Shown piece after piece: positions 1 through 15,458 of a DNA stretch of 16,058 bases. The DNA is taken from NCBI GenBank assembly GCA_002369195.1, contig DFEW01000048.1, positions 13,960 to 30,017 on the forward strand, written 5' to 3'. Every line of letters begins with the position of its first letter. Positions within the stretch are counted from its first letter, which is position 1. Source of the stretch: Christensenella sp. UBA3792 (GTDB lineage: Bacteria > Bacillota > Clostridia > Christensenellales > CAG-138). Position numbers and translations under genes: made by a program. The notes under the pieces are model-generated. The model saw nothing but the letters and a program-made list of their open reading frames with translations, did not search any database and was not told the origin of the DNA.

Positions 1-834
1 GCACGCGAGGGCGGGTACAACATCCGCGCGATGTACATCGGCGGCGGCACGCCGACCGTGCTGAGCGCCGATCAGCTCGACGCGCTGCTCGATCATTACG
101 AGGACACGTACGGCAGCTACGGCGAGGAATGCACCGTCGAGGCGGGCAGACCGGATACGATCACGAAGGAAAAGCTGCAGGTGCTCAGAAAGCACGGCGT
201 CGACCGCATCTCGATCAATCCGCAGACGATGTCGGACGAAACGCTGCAGCGCATCGGACGGCTGCATACGGCGGCGCAGATCCGCGAGGCGTTCGAACTC
301 GCGCGTTCGCTCGATTTCCGCTCGATCAACATGGACCTCATCGCCGGACTTCCTGGCGAGGGGATCGACGATATGGCAAGAACGCTCGAACAGATTCAGG
401 CGCTCGGACCGGACAACCTGACCGTGCACACGCTTGCGATCAAGCGCTCAAGTCGGCTGAAGGATCAGCTGGACCGCTATCCGCTGCCCTCGCGCGAGGA
501 CGTGGAGAAGATGATCGACATGGGCTTTTCGGCGGCGAAGGCGATGGGACTGTGGCCGTACTATATGTATCGGCAGAAGTACCAGAACGGAAACCTCGAA
601 AACGTCGGCTATGCGGCGAACGGCATGGAGTGCGTGTACAACATCGACATGATGGAGGAAACGACCTCGATCCTTGCGCACGGGGCGAACGCGATGACCA
701 AGCGCGTGTTCTATGGACAGAATCGCGTCGAGCGCATCCCGAACCCGAAGGACGTGCCGACCTACGGCGCGAAGCTCGATCTGCTCGATCGGCAGAAGCG
801 CGCGCTGTTTTCAGCGTGTCAAACCGTGGTTTGA
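1..834 (+). CDS. hemZ: HemZ-type coproporphyrinogen dehydrogenase-like radical SAM protein, 3' part
   Basis: The frame is open from base 1 and ends at TGA 832-834, so 277 C-terminal residues are visible and the N-terminus with the CxxxCxxC cluster motif lies outside. The visible part opens with YNIRAMYIGGGTPT, the strand after the Fe-S motif in HemN/HemZ proteins. It continues with TVEAGRPDTITKEKLQ, the HemZ-like variant ISINPQTM (HemN usually has a GVQSF-type motif here) and INMDLIAGLPGE. These are the later strands of a radical SAM barrel. HemZ proteins are annotated as oxygen-independent coproporphyrinogen dehydrogenases in Firmicutes, but whether they make heme here is unproven. The last residues, SACQTVV, are encoded by one arm of a 26-bp palindrome that also contains the stop, so the native C-terminus may have been altered. 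The next unit has its own promoter. Confidence 0.88.
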   Translation, partial: AREGGYNIRAMYIGGGTPTVLSADQLDALLDHYEDTYGSYGEECTVEAGRPDTITKEKLQVLRKHGVDRISINPQTMSDETLQRIGRLHTAAQIREAFELARSLDFRSINMDLIAGLPGEGIDDMARTLEQIQALGPDNLTVHTLAIKRSSRLKDQLDRYPLPSREDVEKMIDMGFSAAKAMGLWPYYMYRQKYQNGNLENVGYAANGMECVYNIDMMEETTSILAHGANAMTKRVFYGQNRVERIPNPKDVPTYGAKLDLLDRQKRALFSACQTVV

Positions 835-839
835 CACGC
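814..839. repeat. Perfect 26-bp palindrome over the hemZ stop codon
   Basis: The arm GCGTGTCAAACC (814-825) and its exact reverse complement GGTTTGACACGC (828-839) are separated by GT. After one mismatch the pairing continues for five more pairs (TTTTC 808-812 with GAAAA 841-845). The hemZ stop TGA lies inside the right arm. The stem opens with T and closes with A, the reverse of an intrinsic terminator, and no U-tract follows on either strand. It could be a REP-like interspersed repeat, an operator or a transcript-end stem. A related octamer, GTTTGACA, occurs at 1044-1051 near the next promoter. Confidence 0.8.
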
Positions 840-841
840 CG

Positions 842-1030
842 AAAAACGTCGGGAAGGGCGGCGGAAACCGTGTTATTCGCCATGAGTCTATACTAAGGTA
901 TGCGAAATGGCGGAAACGCGGTTCGTTTGCGGCGAAACAATCAAGGAAAAGGAGCATGCGCCTTTTCATCATACAAGATACATTTTCTATCTGTCGCCGC
1001 AAACAGTCCGGCCCCTTTTACGACGTTTTT
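842..1030. other. Highly structured intergenic element with two three-way junctions; possible ncRNA or MITE
   Basis: No coding gene is credible here, but nearly the whole stretch pairs. P1: AAAAACGTCG 842-851 with 1021-1030 (10 bp), then 854-858 with 1013-1017 and 862-864 with 1008-1010. P2: 866-883 with 907-923, 17 pairs (14 Watson-Crick, 3 G-U) and one bulged A. P3: GTTTGCGGCGA 925-935 with 994-1004, 11 perfect pairs. P3 encloses P4 (GAAAAGG 946-952 with 961-967) and P5 (AGATA 976-980 with 988-992). P1, P2 and P3 meet in a compact junction with linkers of one, one and three bases. A TATACT (889-894) is present but lacks a good -35, so I cannot place a promoter. I do not recognise the fold as a named RNA family. 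The strand is undecided because both strands fold. Confidence 0.6.
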
Positions 1031-1060: not shown

Positions 1061-1066
1061 AAGCGC

Positions 1067-1294
1067 AAAGCGTTGAACGGAAGAGTACCGGTCGATTGTC
1101 CCAAAGAGAGCGTGCCCGTGGCTGAGAGGCATGCGGACGGACGGCACGGGAAGGACATCCGCAAGCTGCATGCCGGAAGAAAAAGGCATGCCGAAGACCC
1201 TTCGTTATCGGGGAAAAGCGCGCAGCAACTGCTGCGAAACAGGGTGGCACCGCGGTACTTCCGTCCCTTTTACGGGCGAAAGACCGCGTTTTTT
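1067..1294 (+). promoter_or_regulatory. T-box riboswitch leader with terminator, probably sensing tRNA-Asp
   Basis: The T-box core AGGGTGGCACCGCGG (1241-1255) is followed by a terminator, CGCGGT 1251-1256 with ACCGCG 1283-1288 and T6 at 1289-1294. Stem I folds by hand. The base is 1069-1071/1165-1167, 1073-1075/1162-1164 and CGGA 1078-1081/TCCG 1158-1161. The specifier loop has AGTA (1084-1087) facing GAA (1150-1152). The middle helix is 1088-1101/1135-1149. The AG bulge AAAGAGAG is 1103-1110 and the distal hairpin CGTGCC 1111-1116/GGCATG 1128-1133. By position relative to GAA the specifier is GAC (Asp) at 1154-1156, followed by A. The acceptor-pairing bulge is TGGC (1245-1248), which pairs with GCCA and fits the G73 discriminator of tRNA-Asp rather than C73 of tRNA-His. 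An extra hairpin (1168-1174/1185-1191) and stem III (1221-1226/1231-1236) lie between. The leader should stop transcription of the operon when tRNA-Asp is charged. Confidence 0.92.
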
Positions 1295-7984: not shown

Positions 7985-8431
7985 ATGAAGTTTTCAACCA
8001 AAGGCACATACGGTTTGAGAGCCGTCGTCGAGCTGGCGAAGCATTACGGGGAAGGTCCCGTATCGCTGTCGGCGGTGGCGGCGGAGCAGGGCATTTCGGA
8101 GGCGTATCTCGAACAGCTGATGCGCTCGCTGAAGAATGCCGAGCTCGTGACGACCGTGCGCGGCAAGACGGGCGGCTATGCGCTGAACAAGGCGCCGTCC
8201 GAACTCTCCGTCGGAGAGGTGCTGCGCGCATTGGAGGGCAGCACGGACGTGGTCGGGTGCGTCGGCACCGAAGGAAACGTCTGCGAAAACGCCTGCACCT
8301 GCTCGGCGCGTCCGCTGTTTCTGAAGCTGCAGAGCCGCATCAATGCCGTACTGGATGAAACGACCATCGGCGAACTTACCGAAGATCATATCGAACAGAA
8401 AAAGAGGATCGAACATGCACGTTTATCTTGA
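7985..8431 (+). CDS. iscR: Rrf2-family Fe-S regulator, IscR-like
   Basis: This 148-residue transcription factor begins MKFSTKGTYGLRAVVELAKH, the canonical Rrf2 start. The winged helix-turn-helix is at about 25-65, with ISEAYLEQLMRSLKNAELV and the wing VRGKTGGYALNK (58-69). Cysteines C92, C100, C104 and C106 lie where IscR holds its cluster ligands, though the spacing (7, 3 and 1 residues between) differs from E. coli IscR (C-x5-C-x5-C). It probably senses Fe-S cluster status and controls the isc genes. It is the first gene of the operon and overlaps iscS by 17 bases. The candidate operator overlaps its own -35 box. Close relatives include CymR, a cysteine-metabolism regulator that lacks the cysteines, so the cysteines favour IscR. 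Confidence 0.9.
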   Translation: MKFSTKGTYGLRAVVELAKHYGEGPVSLSAVAAEQGISEAYLEQLMRSLKNAELVTTVRGKTGGYALNKAPSELSVGEVLRALEGSTDVVGCVGTEGNVCENACTCSARPLFLKLQSRINAVLDETTIGELTEDHIEQKKRIEHARLS

Positions 8432-10272: not shown

Positions 10273-10326
10273 ATCCTTGAAATTGATCGGTGATTCGTGT
10301 GCTGGGCATACGGAAGAAGGGAACAC

Positions 10327-12858
10327 ATGAAAAAGAGACTGTTTTGTCTGGTTTTGAGCATGCTGATGCTGGCTGTTCTGCTGCCGGTGAGCGCATCCGC
10401 GGATGAACCGCAGACGACCGCGCTGCCGCAGAGGGACAATTACGGGTACATCCCCGCAAAGATCCCCGGCGGACGCACCGTTACGGAAGCGTACGAAAGC
10501 GGCGATATGCAAACGTACAATGCGCTTGCGGGCAGGTTCGCAAAGCGCGATCCGCTGCCGTCGCGCTATGACAGTCGCGATTATGATTACGTGACCGCCG
10601 TGCGCGATCAGAATCCCTACGGCACGTGCTGGGCGCATGCGGCGATGGCGAGCGTCGAGAGCTACATGATCAAGCACGGCGTTCCGGTTGGCAAGGGACA
10701 GACCGCGACGTCGCGGATCAATCTGTCCGAGCTGCAGCACGCGTTTTTCAACTATACCTACGCTTACGACGCCGAAGGCATGCTGACCGGCGACAGGACC
10801 ATGCCGATGGGAACCTGCCTCGATCTGGGCGGCAACGGCGAAATGTCCGCATATACGCTGATGCGCTGGACGGGCGCGGCGAGCGAATCGGATTTTGAGC
10901 TTGCATACCGCAATGCGGATACCGTCAACAGCGACGGGCTCGACAGCAAGTATGCCTACGGCTCGAACGTCTGCCATGTGCAGAACTCGGAGTGGATCCC
11001 CGGCAAGGACATCGATGCGGTCAAGCGCGCGATCATGGAGTACGGCGCGGGCAACATCAGCTACTATGAGACCGGAAACGCGTATACTTACATCTGCAAC
11101 AACGGCGAGAACCTGTACGGCAATCACGCGATCACCGTCGTGGGCTGGGACGACAGCATTGCGCCGTCGCAGTTCGCGCCCGATCAGCCGCAGTCGCCGG
11201 GCGCATGGATCTGCAAGAACAGCTGGGGCACGTACCTCTTTGAGGACGGCTATTGCTATATCTCGTATGAGGACGCGTCCGTCGTGGGCGACCTGATCTA
11301 CTTCTACGATGCGGAGCCGATCGACAACTACGATCACAACTACCAGTATGACGGCACCTGCAATCCGACCGGCTACGTGTGGATGGAAAGCGGCGGTCAG
11401 GCGGCGAACGTGTTTACCGCAAAGGGAGACGAGCTTTTGAAGGCGGTTGCGTTCTGCTCGTTCGATGAAGCGCTGACCTATGAGGTCTCGATCTACGTGA
11501 ATCCGTCCGCAGGCAATCCGTCTTCCGGCAAGCTTGCGGCAACCAAGAGCGGTTATGTGACGTTCCCCGGCTACTACACCGTCGAGCTCGACGCGCCGGT
11601 CGCGCTGAACGCGGGGGACACCTTCGCGGTCGTCGTGCGGGTGGCGGCGCAGGACGGGTATGTGTTTGTGCCGTGCGACCAATCCGGCTACATCAGCTGG
11701 TGCTCCTGGACGCACACGGATCACGGCAACAGTTCCTTCTATAAACGGTCGGACAGCTCGTCATGGTCGGACTGCCCGGGCAACGGCGACTTCCGCATCA
11801 AGGCCTACACGGCGGACGCGCCGGCATCGACGCCGACCCCGACGGCAACGCCGACCCCGACGGCAACGCCGACCGCAACTCCGACGGCAACCCCGATTGC
11901 AGAACCGACGGAAACGCCGACGGATCAGCCCACGGCAGCCCCGACCGAGACGCCCACATCCACACCGGATGCGGCTGTCAATGGCACGGTCGAGTGGAAC
12001 AAGAGCGACGTGCAGTTCAAGGGCACGACCGCGTACGTGATGTACGACGGTACGACGCATACACCGCGCTTCACCGTGAAGGACGAGAACGGCAGCGTGA
12101 TCGACCCGTCCATGTACGATTACGAGTACAAAGAGAACACGAAGGCCGGTACCGGCTATGTGATCGTGACGTTTAAGAACGGATTTACGGGAACCTGTCA
12201 GGGCAGTTTCAAAATTTATCTGCCCGCGACGACCCAGACGACTGTCGAGAACGTCGACGAGGGCATCAAGCTGACCTGGGCGCCGGTCGAAGGCGCTGCG
12301 GGCTATGTCATTTACAGACGCGCTTGGAGCAGCACCACCAACGGCTGGACGACCTTCGCGCGGTGGAACAATACGACCGATACGACCTATATCGACGGCG
12401 TCGATGCGGCGCACAAGGTCTATGCGGGCACGCGCTATCAGTACGGCGTGAAAGCATACTTTGCGCGGCGGCTCGATCCGATCGCGAACATTGAGATCGG
12501 CGGCAATGTCAATGAGCCGTCCGGCAATTTCAATCTCGGCATGGTCGGTCCGCTGAAGACCACGGTGCGCATCACCTCCCGCGTGCTGAACAGCGTGACG
12601 GGCGGATCGAAGCAGCTGACGGTCAAGTGGGCGGGCAGTTCGAACTTCACCGGCTACGAGGTACAGGTTGCGACGAATGCGAGCTTTACCAAGAATGCCG
12701 TGACCGTGAAGATCGCCGGCGCCAAGACGTATCAGACGAATGTGTCGGGACTCAAAGCCAGGACGACCTATTACGTCCGCGTACGCTCGTATCACGAATT
12801 CGAGGGCATGACGTACTACGGCGGCTGGTCGAACGTGAAGAGCGCAAAGACAAAGTAA
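10327..12858 (+). CDS. Secreted C1-family (papain-like) cysteine peptidase with lectin-like, Pro/Thr linker and Ig/Fn3 modules
   Basis: The product has 843 residues. A signal peptide covers 1-25 (MKKRLFCLVLSMLM start, cleavage near ASA-DE). The peptidase domain is about 75-330: Q95 (oxyanion hole), C101 in NPYGTCWAHAA, H267 in GNHAITVVGWD and N298 in CKNSWGTYLF are the expected catalytic residues. A lectin-like domain, found next to such peptidases in Clostridia, spans about 335-495. A Thr/Pro/Ala linker covers 502-547. A repeat of the kind seen in clostridial surface proteins (YDGTTHTPRFTVKDENG, then KAGTGYVIVTFKNGFTGT) is at about 551-632, and two Fn3-like domains at about 637-715 and 745-843. 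There is no LPXTG signal or anchor, so it is probably released or held non-covalently. The start at 10327 follows AGAAGGGA; an upstream in-frame ATG at 10297 would spoil the signal peptide. Confidence 0.9.
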   Translation: MKKRLFCLVLSMLMLAVLLPVSASADEPQTTALPQRDNYGYIPAKIPGGRTVTEAYESGDMQTYNALAGRFAKRDPLPSRYDSRDYDYVTAVRDQNPYGTCWAHAAMASVESYMIKHGVPVGKGQTATSRINLSELQHAFFNYTYAYDAEGMLTGDRTMPMGTCLDLGGNGEMSAYTLMRWTGAASESDFELAYRNADTVNSDGLDSKYAYGSNVCHVQNSEWIPGKDIDAVKRAIMEYGAGNISYYETGNAYTYICNNGENLYGNHAITVVGWDDSIAPSQFAPDQPQSPGAWICKNSWGTYLFEDGYCYISYEDASVVGDLIYFYDAEPIDNYDHNYQYDGTCNPTGYVWMESGGQAANVFTAKGDELLKAVAFCSFDEALTYEVSIYVNPSAGNPSSGKLAATKSGYVTFPGYYTVELDAPVALNAGDTFAVVVRVAAQDGYVFVPCDQSGYISWCSWTHTDHGNSSFYKRSDSSSWSDCPGNGDFRIKAYTADAPASTPTPTATPTPTATPTATPTATPIAEPTETPTDQPTAAPTETPTSTPDAAVNGTVEWNKSDVQFKGTTAYVMYDGTTHTPRFTVKDENGSVIDPSMYDYEYKENTKAGTGYVIVTFKNGFTGTCQGSFKIYLPATTQTTVENVDEGIKLTWAPVEGAAGYVIYRRAWSSTTNGWTTFARWNNTTDTTYIDGVDAAHKVYAGTRYQYGVKAYFARRLDPIANIEIGGNVNEPSGNFNLGMVGPLKTTVRITSRVLNSVTGGSKQLTVKWAGSSNFTGYEVQVATNASFTKNAVTVKIAGAKTYQTNVSGLKARTTYYVRVRSYHEFEGMTYYGGWSNVKSAKTK
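11830..11967 (+). repeat. Thr-Pro linker repeat within the peptidase gene
   Basis: Degenerate tandem DNA encodes TPTPTATPTPTATPTATP and onward (residues 502-547). The 18-bp unit ACGCCGACCCCGACGGCA occurs twice exactly (11830-11847 and 11848-11865) and then decays into six- and twelve-base variants. Such linkers separate catalytic from binding modules in secreted proteins and can vary in length by slippage. Confidence 0.9.
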
Positions 12859-13403: not shown

Positions 13404-15458
13404 ATGGAAGAAGCGGTAAAACAATCGAAGAAGCGGAAAGGACGCGCGTGGATATGGATCGCGGCGGCTTTTCTTGTGCTGCTCGCCGCCGTGCTGATCC
13501 ACTATCGCGGCGTGCGCCCGATCGTGACGGTCGAGTACGGCGCGTTCGTGCGGGCGGAAGATTTCACCTCGCGCGAGGCGTCGCTTGAGACCGAGGGCGA
13601 GCGCCCGACGCTCGGCTGGCATGTGCTGGATCTGCATCTCGGCGCGCCGACGCCGGTGCTGCTGCACGTGAGGGACAGCATTGCGCCGACGGCGGAACCG
13701 TTCGGTCACGAGGTCGCGGTCGGCAAGGCGTACGGACCGGACGCGTTTGTGCGCAACATCAAGGATGCCGACGTCGTGCGGCTGACCTTTGCGCAGCAGC
13801 CGGACTTTTCGGTCGAGAATGAAACCGACGCCGAGATCCTGCTGTCGGATTCCTCAAATAACCAAAGCCGTGTGCGTGTGCACATTTCGGTGCGCGCGAC
13901 ACATCCGCTTGTGACGCTCGAAGCGGGCGCGGACGCGCCGACGGCGGAGGCGTTCTTGCTCGACGGCGTGCGCGGCACGCTGGACGAACCGATCCCGCAG
14001 GCGCGCATGCACCATACCGGCACGGTTCCGGTTGCGGTCACGACGGACGAAGGATTGCATTCGACCGCGACGCTTAAGATCGTCGACACCGTTGCGCCGG
14101 TCGCGAACGGTACGCTGCTGCACCTGCTGCCGAACGAAACGGCGGCGCCGCAGGATTGCGTGACGGACGTGCGGGACGAAACCGACCTTGCGTATCGCTT
14201 TTTAGACGAGCCGGACTATGCGCGGCGCGACGTGCAGGAACTGACCGTGCGCATCACGGACGAAGGCGGCAACGAGACGGACGTGGAGGCGTCGATCCTC
14301 ATTTCCGGCGTGCATCCGAAGGTGGTGGAGGTGCGGACGGAAGCACTGAACGCGTCGGACTTCGAGAACGAGGAGGGCGACGAGATCACGGTCGCGCCGT
14401 TCGAACCGCGCGTGCCGGGCACGTATCCGGTCCGGATCGTGACAAACGGCGTGGAACAGACCGTTGCGGTGACCGTCGTCGATACGACCGCGCCGACGAT
14501 CGTGCCGACGGAGCTGAAGCGCGGGGACGTGTTCTATGCGCAGCATGCCTATGCGCCGGAAACGTTCTTCACGGCGAGCGATATTTCCACCCTGACGCTG
14601 CGCTACGAGACCGAACCGGACTGGCAAAGCGCGGGCGATCAGACGGTCACGGTCGTTGCGGAGGACGCGTACGGCAACAGCGCGACGCTTTCGCGCACGG
14701 TTCGCTTGACGGCGGATGCGACGCCGCCGCACATTTACGGCGTGATCGACCGCATCTGCTACGTGAACGAGCCGATCGCGTACTTTAAGGAAGTCTTTGC
14801 CGAGGACGAAACGGACGGGCGCGTGGGCATTACCGTGCAGTCCGAGGTTGTGACGTATCAGGAGGGCACGTACACGGTCACGTACCGTGCGCAGGACCTC
14901 AGCGGCAACGAAACGGTGACGACCTGCACGTATACGCTGATTCAGCAGACGGTGACGGAGGAGGAGCTCAAGGCGATCGCGCAGTCTGTCATGGCAGAGA
15001 TCACCACGCCGGACATGGTCGACGTCGAAAAGCTGCGGGCGATCTTCGATTATGTGCGCAAGCATATTGTGTATGTGAACGGCTCGAACGACAACTATAC
15101 CGACTGGCGCAAGGCGGCGTACGACGGGTTCACCTACGGCAAGGGCGACTGCTACAACATTTATGCCGTGACCCGCGCGCTGCTCGATGAGACGAACATT
15201 TCGTATCAGTCGGTCGAGCGCATCAAGACCTATGTGCGGCGCACGCGCCACTACTGGGTGAACGTCAACGTCGGCACCGGCTGGTATGTGTTCGACCCGA
15301 CGTGGACGCCCAAGCACAAGGCGGAATGCTTCATGTGGACCAAGCGTCAGTGCAATTCGTTCCGGCTCTACTGGTATTACGACGAATCCAAATACCCGCC
15401 GCTCGCGACCGAGCCGTTCGACTACGAAGCAGTGCGCAACATGCAGCGCAATCCGTAA
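13404..15458 (+). CDS. Membrane-anchored protein with Ig-like repeats and a C-terminal transglutaminase-like domain
   Basis: The product has 684 residues. A basic N-terminus (KQSKKRKGR) precedes one membrane helix (about 15-32), so most of the protein lies outside the cell. Four Ig-like modules follow, marked by repeated boundaries: VRDSIAPTAEP (89-99), IVDTVAPVANG (226-236), VVDTTAPTIVP (358-368) and TADATPPHIYG (436-446). The last one (GTYTVTYRAQDLSGNETVT) resembles the DUF5011/HYR-type bacterial Ig fold. The C-terminal domain (about 517-670) is a transglutaminase core with C583 (KGDCYNIYAV), H616 (RTRHYWVNV) and D631 (YVFDPTW) as the catalytic triad. It may cross-link or cleave cell-wall or surface substrates. 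The only plausible start is ATG 13404, because TGA 13398-13400 is in frame just upstream, yet there is no Shine-Dalgarno and a terminator directly precedes it. Confidence 0.87.
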   Translation: MEEAVKQSKKRKGRAWIWIAAAFLVLLAAVLIHYRGVRPIVTVEYGAFVRAEDFTSREASLETEGERPTLGWHVLDLHLGAPTPVLLHVRDSIAPTAEPFGHEVAVGKAYGPDAFVRNIKDADVVRLTFAQQPDFSVENETDAEILLSDSSNNQSRVRVHISVRATHPLVTLEAGADAPTAEAFLLDGVRGTLDEPIPQARMHHTGTVPVAVTTDEGLHSTATLKIVDTVAPVANGTLLHLLPNETAAPQDCVTDVRDETDLAYRFLDEPDYARRDVQELTVRITDEGGNETDVEASILISGVHPKVVEVRTEALNASDFENEEGDEITVAPFEPRVPGTYPVRIVTNGVEQTVAVTVVDTTAPTIVPTELKRGDVFYAQHAYAPETFFTASDISTLTLRYETEPDWQSAGDQTVTVVAEDAYGNSATLSRTVRLTADATPPHIYGVIDRICYVNEPIAYFKEVFAEDETDGRVGITVQSEVVTYQEGTYTVTYRAQDLSGNETVTTCTYTLIQQTVTEEELKAIAQSVMAEITTPDMVDVEKLRAIFDYVRKHIVYVNGSNDNYTDWRKAAYDGFTYGKGDCYNIYAVTRALLDETNISYQSVERIKTYVRRTRHYWVNVNVGTGWYVFDPTWTPKHKAECFMWTKRQCNSFRLYWYYDESKYPPLATEPFDYEAVRNMQRNP

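Follow-up and report, generated by a model that had tools for sequence, protein, structure and literature searches.

A dispersed, probably MITE-like element with a conserved branched fold lies, in many of its copies, between duplicated terminator hairpins in Christensenella sp. UBA3792 and its relatives

Bacterial MITEs such as QMITE2 and the BOX, RUP and SPRITE elements are described, in the passages at hand, as short, non-coding and dispersed sequences with terminal inverted repeats and direct repeats, the latter measuring 7-9 bp in QMITE2; they can yield stable folded transcripts, and some forms, such as SPRITE, lie near terminators (PMC10969869). Longer target duplications are given for the long-duplication subgroup of the IS1202 group, namely 16-28 bp in one paper (PMC10132070) and 24-29 bp in a second (PMC10045372), the ends being of the type 5'-TGT...ACA-3'; the available passages of these two papers report no targeting of terminators. 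According to excerpts from two further papers, terminator hairpins and further inverted repeats, with no sequence consensus, serve as insertion targets for IS1272/TnSha1 of the IS1182 family, and IS1272 deletes or replaces part of the hairpin without a target duplication (PMC4923244, PMC5678879). The B. cereus repeats bcr1-bcr18 are, in the portion of the source at hand, lineage-restricted and dispersed sequences of 100-400 bp with mobile features, bcr1 reaching up to 130 copies per genome; their mobility is tied to a TTTAT motif and to events resembling site-specific recombination, and not to terminators as in the element described here (PMC6542083).

This element, which we call family A, is like the MITEs in being short, non-coding and dispersed, and in having inverted-repeat ends, direct repeats and a strong predicted fold. 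Unlike the MITEs as portrayed in that source, it has a covarying three-way junction and an extra 5' hairpin formed from one terminal repeat, and it duplicates a whole terminator hairpin. Its duplications of 14-34 bp, mostly 18-28 bp, are close in length to those of the long-duplication class set out for the IS1202 group, but CAG precedes TGTC at the left end and the repeats abut CAG...CTG, so that the ends are not those given for IS1202. As described for IS1272/TnSha1, family A inserts in terminator hairpins; however, the hairpin is duplicated and not partly deleted or replaced without duplication, as the excerpts on IS1272 have it. REP/RAYT or IS200/IS605-type elements have a Y1 transposase and make no target duplication, and the duplications of family A speak against membership. 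In full-text literature with few subscription journals, no paper was recognisable by title or abstract as describing family A or an element that duplicates whole terminators.

The window, a stretch of 16,058 nucleotides from Christensenella sp. UBA3792, contains a copy of family A whose parts are listed in Table 1. Positions 842-1030, which the original prediction had described as folding almost completely into a branched structure, reach -82.6 kcal/mol on the + strand (z -8.40) and -68.8 kcal/mol on the - strand (z -5.25), and on either strand 0 of 200 shuffles folded as well. In the minimum-energy fold P2 (866-883 with 907-923) shows the 17 bp and the one bulge ascribed to it, with an inner stem of 887-893 with 898-905, and P3 (925-935 with 994-1004) the 11 bp enclosing two small hairpins (946-967 and 976-992). 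P1, proposed as 10+5+3 bp, is present as a helix, but its pairs (842-865 with 1007-1030) amount to 22 bp including bulges; likewise, the three-way junction stands, with linkers of 0, 1 and 2 bases and not of 1, 1 and 3. The bounds of the whole element were set by 12 empty hemZ-hisS sites and by the edges of copies with duplicated targets elsewhere. Because the last 6 bases of the P1 consensus are absent, the right boundary can be placed only to within a few bases. Positions 1026-1030 (TTTTT) match the empty site of relatives and are probably flanking DNA that pairs with P1 by chance. That the stretch could not be matched to 6S RNA, tmRNA, RNase P or a known riboswitch agrees with Rfam 15, which gives no match over the element at the gathering score, the T-box leader being the sole match in the window. 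At E values up to 10, a single weak match at chance level appeared over the element, and in five related loci no known RNA family was found at the gathering score.

Table 1. Coordinates of the family A copy and of neighbouring features in the window
Feature	Position	Strand	Basis or remark
Whole inserted element (family A copy), ~214 bases	812..1025	+	CAGCGTGTCAAACC marks the left edge (812); the right edge lies close to ACGACG (1025)
5' terminal hairpin, perfect 12-bp palindrome GCGTGTCAAACC/GGTTTGACACGC	814..839	none	Part of the element; window sequence, and in related copies the hairpin likewise precedes the branched body by 2-3 nt
hemZ stop codon TGA	832..834	+	Inside the 5' hairpin of the element
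P1, 5' strand	842..865	+	Minimum-energy fold; covariation
P1, 3' strand	1007..1030	+	Minimum-energy fold and empty-site comparison
P2 and its terminal hairpin (CTATACTAAGGTATG)	866..923	+	Minimum-energy fold; covariation
P3 (GTTTGCGGCGA/TCGCCGCAAAC) enclosing two hairpins	925..1004	+	Minimum-energy fold; P3 pairs covary
T-box leader upstream of hisS, neighbour outside the element	1064..1271	+	Rfam RF00230, 114.6 bits

Elsewhere in the window, 10297-12858 and 13404-15458 encode large secreted-type proteins, one a papain-family peptidase with lectin-like and fn3 domains and the other a transglutaminase-core protein with Ig-like repeats. An isc-type gene run (Rrf2 regulator at 7985-8431) lies between these genes and the hisS-aspS block.

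Comparison with congeners identified the site at which the window copy arrived. Among 20 hemZ-hisS loci compared, 12 keep hemZ next to hisS and none of these carries the element, the distance from the expected hemZ end to hisS being 267-271 nt in these 12 congeners vs 486 nt in the window; in 7 of the 20, hisS does not follow hemZ in the available stretch. Homologous hemZ-hisS intergenic regions, where relatives of a structured RNA had been expected, are thus empty in 12 of 12 syntenic cases. Neither does the element lie 3' of the hemZ stop, as originally placed, since that codon sits within its 5' hairpin. The C-terminus of HemZ reads ...KRALFSACQTVV in the window and ...RALFLQ or LFLP in relatives, the element having replaced the last hemZ codons and supplied a new stop. 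This insertion at the hemZ 3' end lies outside any terminator, and the window copy has no flanking direct repeat of at least 11 nt. At the remaining one of the 20 hemZ-hisS loci (L296, genome G002) a different insertion of ~540 bp is found, which ends in TCTGACACCCTTTCTGACTAAGACAGTC and is flanked by a non-palindromic 24-nt repeat. At surE in the window's genome, a family A element lies between two copies of a 24-nt terminator palindrome, and a single terminator stands there in each of the four relatives in which the upstream gene is retained (L331, L332, L336, L344); since terminator sequences differ among species, this comparison is an argument from synteny. The site of the copy in L019/L191 is a 17-nt gene gap in L156, and the L133 intergene, which carries a different terminator, gives no clean orthologous counterpart to the site in L044.

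The branched fold with its three-way junction is kept by compensating mutations across copies. In an alignment of 30 copies, from which incomplete copies and repeats (L005, L024, L031) were left out, the proportion of paired cells is 91.8% (87.1 after shuffling, 37-52 after sliding), and both sides have changed in 27 of the 52 pairs (11.1 after shuffling). In 104 matches fitted to the structure of the model (100 chosen loci, 99 distinct rows, incomplete copies included) the values are 93.7% (shuffled 86.2; slid 34-52) and 40 of 52 pairs (shuffled 23.9), the shuffled and slid controls leaving the relatedness among copies in place in both sets. The covariation count covered the pairs of P1, P2 and P3 without the hairpins inside P3, which come from single folds. 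Neither of the outcomes named beforehand as telling against a real structure, a folding energy no better than that of shuffled sequence or a lack of homologous structures with compensating changes, was observed. One copy in the window's own genome (L003) folds differently, with z -1.78, no better than most shuffles.

Of 126 copies, 107 fold more stably on the + strand than on the - strand (mean -89.0 vs -81.6 kcal/mol; shuffled difference -2.0), and G-U cells outnumber A-C cells by 265 to 92. Because this excess, counted per pair, is only 19 to 11 (p = 0.20, not significant), strand polarity of the fold is likely but unproven. The + strand advantage hints at action as RNA or as single-stranded DNA, the two forms first proposed for the stretch, and together with the covarying junction it makes a structured single strand likely. 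TTGACA in the 5' hairpin and TATACT in P2 were considered as a promoter within the body and rejected, the spacing judged by eye being far from 17 bp. Strong covariation and a better folding + strand would also suit a family of structured RNA genes, regulatory or housekeeping, that spreads by ordinary duplication or recombination at terminators and has the flanking terminators as part of its transcription unit. We regard such a family as improbable in view of the distribution and the flanks of the copies.

In the window's own genome, BLAST of the stretch found five places, and a covariance model (R1) built from the 30 copies gave nine rows, one of which is the antisense of a tandem pair and two of which are partial. 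Among relatives, 23 of 101 genomes match by BLAST. With at most 24 candidates per genome scored, the model has matches in 34 of 103 family genomes and 2 of 26 genera, namely in 22 of 23 genomes of the window's genus and 12 of 12 of one other genus, and none in the other 24 genera of the family. When three genomes were searched more fully, 65, 37 and 49 matches came out, a few of which are one place counted once per strand. Scanning named genomes for a pattern returned 87 stretches; of the 80 listed, 79 belong to MAGs labelled as uncultured Clostridia, Clostridiales or Bacillota, many of them bearing ruminant names, and the remaining entry is Geobacillus. The searches of phage, plasmid and viral-contig collections gave no DNA match. 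Judged by these sequence matches, the element occurs in two related groups of ruminant-gut bacteria. It is dispersed, its copies are lineage-specific and it is not a single-locus RNA; the match count of 0 to 65 among congeners and the empty syntenic hemZ-hisS sites both argue against an RNA gene family.

Several copies show irregular arrangements. Tandem copies with a period of ~183-190 bp occur at G000:C12:37515-37888 and in genome G112 (contigs C67 and C80). Two copies of genome G007 (L033 and L181) have a common right flank and different left flanks, by recombination between copies or as an assembly chimera. Extra short hairpins are present in P2 or P1 of L024, L258, L234 and L235, often with ..AACGAAGCG..GCGAAGTGG...

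Complete family A elements measure ~224 bp and have imperfect terminal inverted repeats, CAGCKTGTCAAAA on the left and CAGNCTGTCGTAAAA on the right (read inward); the left repeat makes up the 5' hairpin, which is followed by the conserved branched body P1-P2-P3. In many copies the palindromic hairpin CAGCKTGTCAAA...TTTGACAMGCTG stands 2 nt upstream of P1. It was found at 43 sites in 15 of 23 genomes of the window's genus, most of the inspected sites lying directly 5' of the body and directly 3' of a terminator-like palindrome, and its two variable positions are paired in every case, as G with C or as T with A. The element is short and free of a transposase, and in 13 of 16 distinct cases with duplicated targets the insert measures 221-227 bp between the same two ends. 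This constancy of length and ends calls for end recognition. It therefore weighs against passive spread as folded single-stranded DNA, in which lagging-strand template switching at hairpins would copy the element and duplicate the terminators with no dedicated enzyme. Insertions of palindromes into palindromes are common, as in the extra P1/P2 hairpins of L024 and L234/L235 and the second cassette family found in hairpin loops (see below), and would be in line with such a process, which we nevertheless consider the least probable of the explanations.

Many copies lie between two copies of a whole intrinsic-terminator hairpin. For flank counts we kept copies that had both ends and no less than 80 nt of left or 70 nt of right flank (126 of 207 after deduplication), the loci being those returned by the searches and not a random sample. 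Direct repeats measuring 14 nt or more were present at the element ends in 23 of 57 copies with the 5' hairpin (0 of 1118 shuffled flank pairs) and in 1 of 69 copies without it (0 of 1352), leaving 34 of 57 and 68 of 69 copies, respectively, with no such repeat. A target duplication of the kind known from MITEs is thus found in the family and is missing from the window copy. Of the 23 direct-repeat copies, 22 have a terminator-like hairpin adjoining each side. Among all 126 copies the right end borders on a hairpin in 47, immediately 3' of the body as might be expected of an RNA gene, and the left end in 31, against 0.96% of 1254 control positions. The T-rich tail of the target can be on either side of the element, so that its orientation is free, and the flanking hairpins are identical to each other at a site and differ between sites, both of which argue against a gene that carries terminators of its own. 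Scanning the collected loci for direct repeats that border CAG...CTG gave 20 rows: 15 belong to family A, one more is a family A copy with a nested cassette, 1 is a like-ended element with another body and 3 are unrelated; in the 16 distinct cases the repeats span the range of lengths given above.

It had been argued that a simple MITE would form one long hairpin and that branching therefore spoke against a MITE. The findings do not support this argument: the repeat is dispersed and mobile, its terminal inverted repeats are imperfect, and it has target duplications. Multiple genomic copies with target duplications had been named as a sign of a mobile element and covariation among copies as a sign of an RNA; both were found, the covariation in dispersed and not in syntenic copies, and therefore mobile element and structured RNA are not mutually exclusive here. 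The comparisons establish that the element was mobile over evolutionary time, with defined ends, duplication of whole hairpins and conservation of its fold.

Retroposition could produce duplications of variable length if a reverse transcriptase copied the folded RNA into terminator hairpins in a SINE-like manner, with nicks at the hairpin bases. The spread of 14-34 bp, a structured body without an ORF and the + strand polarity would fit, and group IIC introns are described, in the passages available, as structured RNA mobile elements that integrate next to a DNA stem-loop (PMC10190682). Constant ends and inverted-repeat-like termini, however, are what DNA transposition gives, and we hold retroposition to be very improbable. 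Rfam has no match to a group II intron RNA core in the window or in five related loci. We know of no long target duplication made by group IIC introns.

Among the searches for DUF772, for DDE_Tnp_1 and for the right end, all carried out in genomes that are incomplete MAGs, no autonomous relative with matching ends was found. An IS1182-type partner was rejected, as DUF772 transposases occur in just 3 of 23 genomes of the window's genus and have different ends; an IS4-type partner was likewise dismissed, with DDE_Tnp_1 in 1 of 10 genomes. In the 23 genomes of the window's genus, the exact right end CTGTCGTARAAGGGG was found in no other element. The locus L250 was considered as an autonomous version and rejected, its extra 1.2 kb being a nested cassette of a second mobile family, family B.

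Family B has the left end GAGCTATTCTCTAAAGGGTGG, the right end CCCCCTTGACARANNNCCTNYGAA and seemingly a 3-bp GAA duplication. It occurs at L250:3060-4323 and also in L307-L310, L313-L319, L321, L322 and L324, its sites being loops of terminator hairpins or, within family A, the P1/P2 junction; P2 comes next after 12 of 30 right ends inspected. The cargo consists of single diverse genes, among them a histidine phosphatase (PF00300, L105), a nucleotidyltransferase-like protein with a weak match (L141) and, named by eye, GNAT-like (L137) and ion-channel-like (L135) proteins. No transposase was seen in the family B cassettes inspected. At L182:1348-1630 a 235-bp element (1372-1606) has like ends (CAGCGTGTCAAAAAA ... 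TTTTTAGACAGACTG) around an unrelated structured body and has the 24-bp palindrome CACCTTCCCCTCAAGGGGAAGGCT on either side; L087, L233, L151 and L193 share parts of its body.

We conclude, with a probability of roughly 0.72, that the window stretch is a copy of a non-autonomous, MITE-like element, family A, that is moved in trans by an enzyme cutting at the bases of terminator hairpins. A recombinase or transposase supplied in trans would recognise the element ends and attack the extruded or single-stranded terminator hairpin at both stem bases with staggered cuts, and fill-in would then duplicate the 14-34 bp palindrome. The branched fold may be needed as a single strand, either a folded DNA substrate or an RNA, for recognition by this machinery. 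Since an intact hairpin is kept on each side, the neighbouring genes would be insulated and insertion would come at a low cost.

A bolder proposal, which we consider doubtful, is that the element is mobile as a folded nucleic acid and represents a new class, in which a dedicated machinery inserts a three-way junction, as RNA or single-stranded DNA, into terminator hairpins and also moves structured bodies with like ends. If this is true, duplication of the whole hairpin preserves the transcription stops on both sides, and the same machinery moves other like-ended structured bodies, such as the 235-bp element in L182.

In the window, the element has altered the annotation of the hemZ 3' end. 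More generally, strong covariation in a bacterial intergenic region need not indicate a cellular RNA gene. As far as the sources at hand go, few mobile elements are known to target terminator hairpins, and IS1272/TnSha1 damage the hairpin in doing so. An element that duplicates the hairpin would be able to persist between genes at little cost, and the conservation of its branched fold gives a concrete starting point for working out how structured non-coding elements are recognised and moved.
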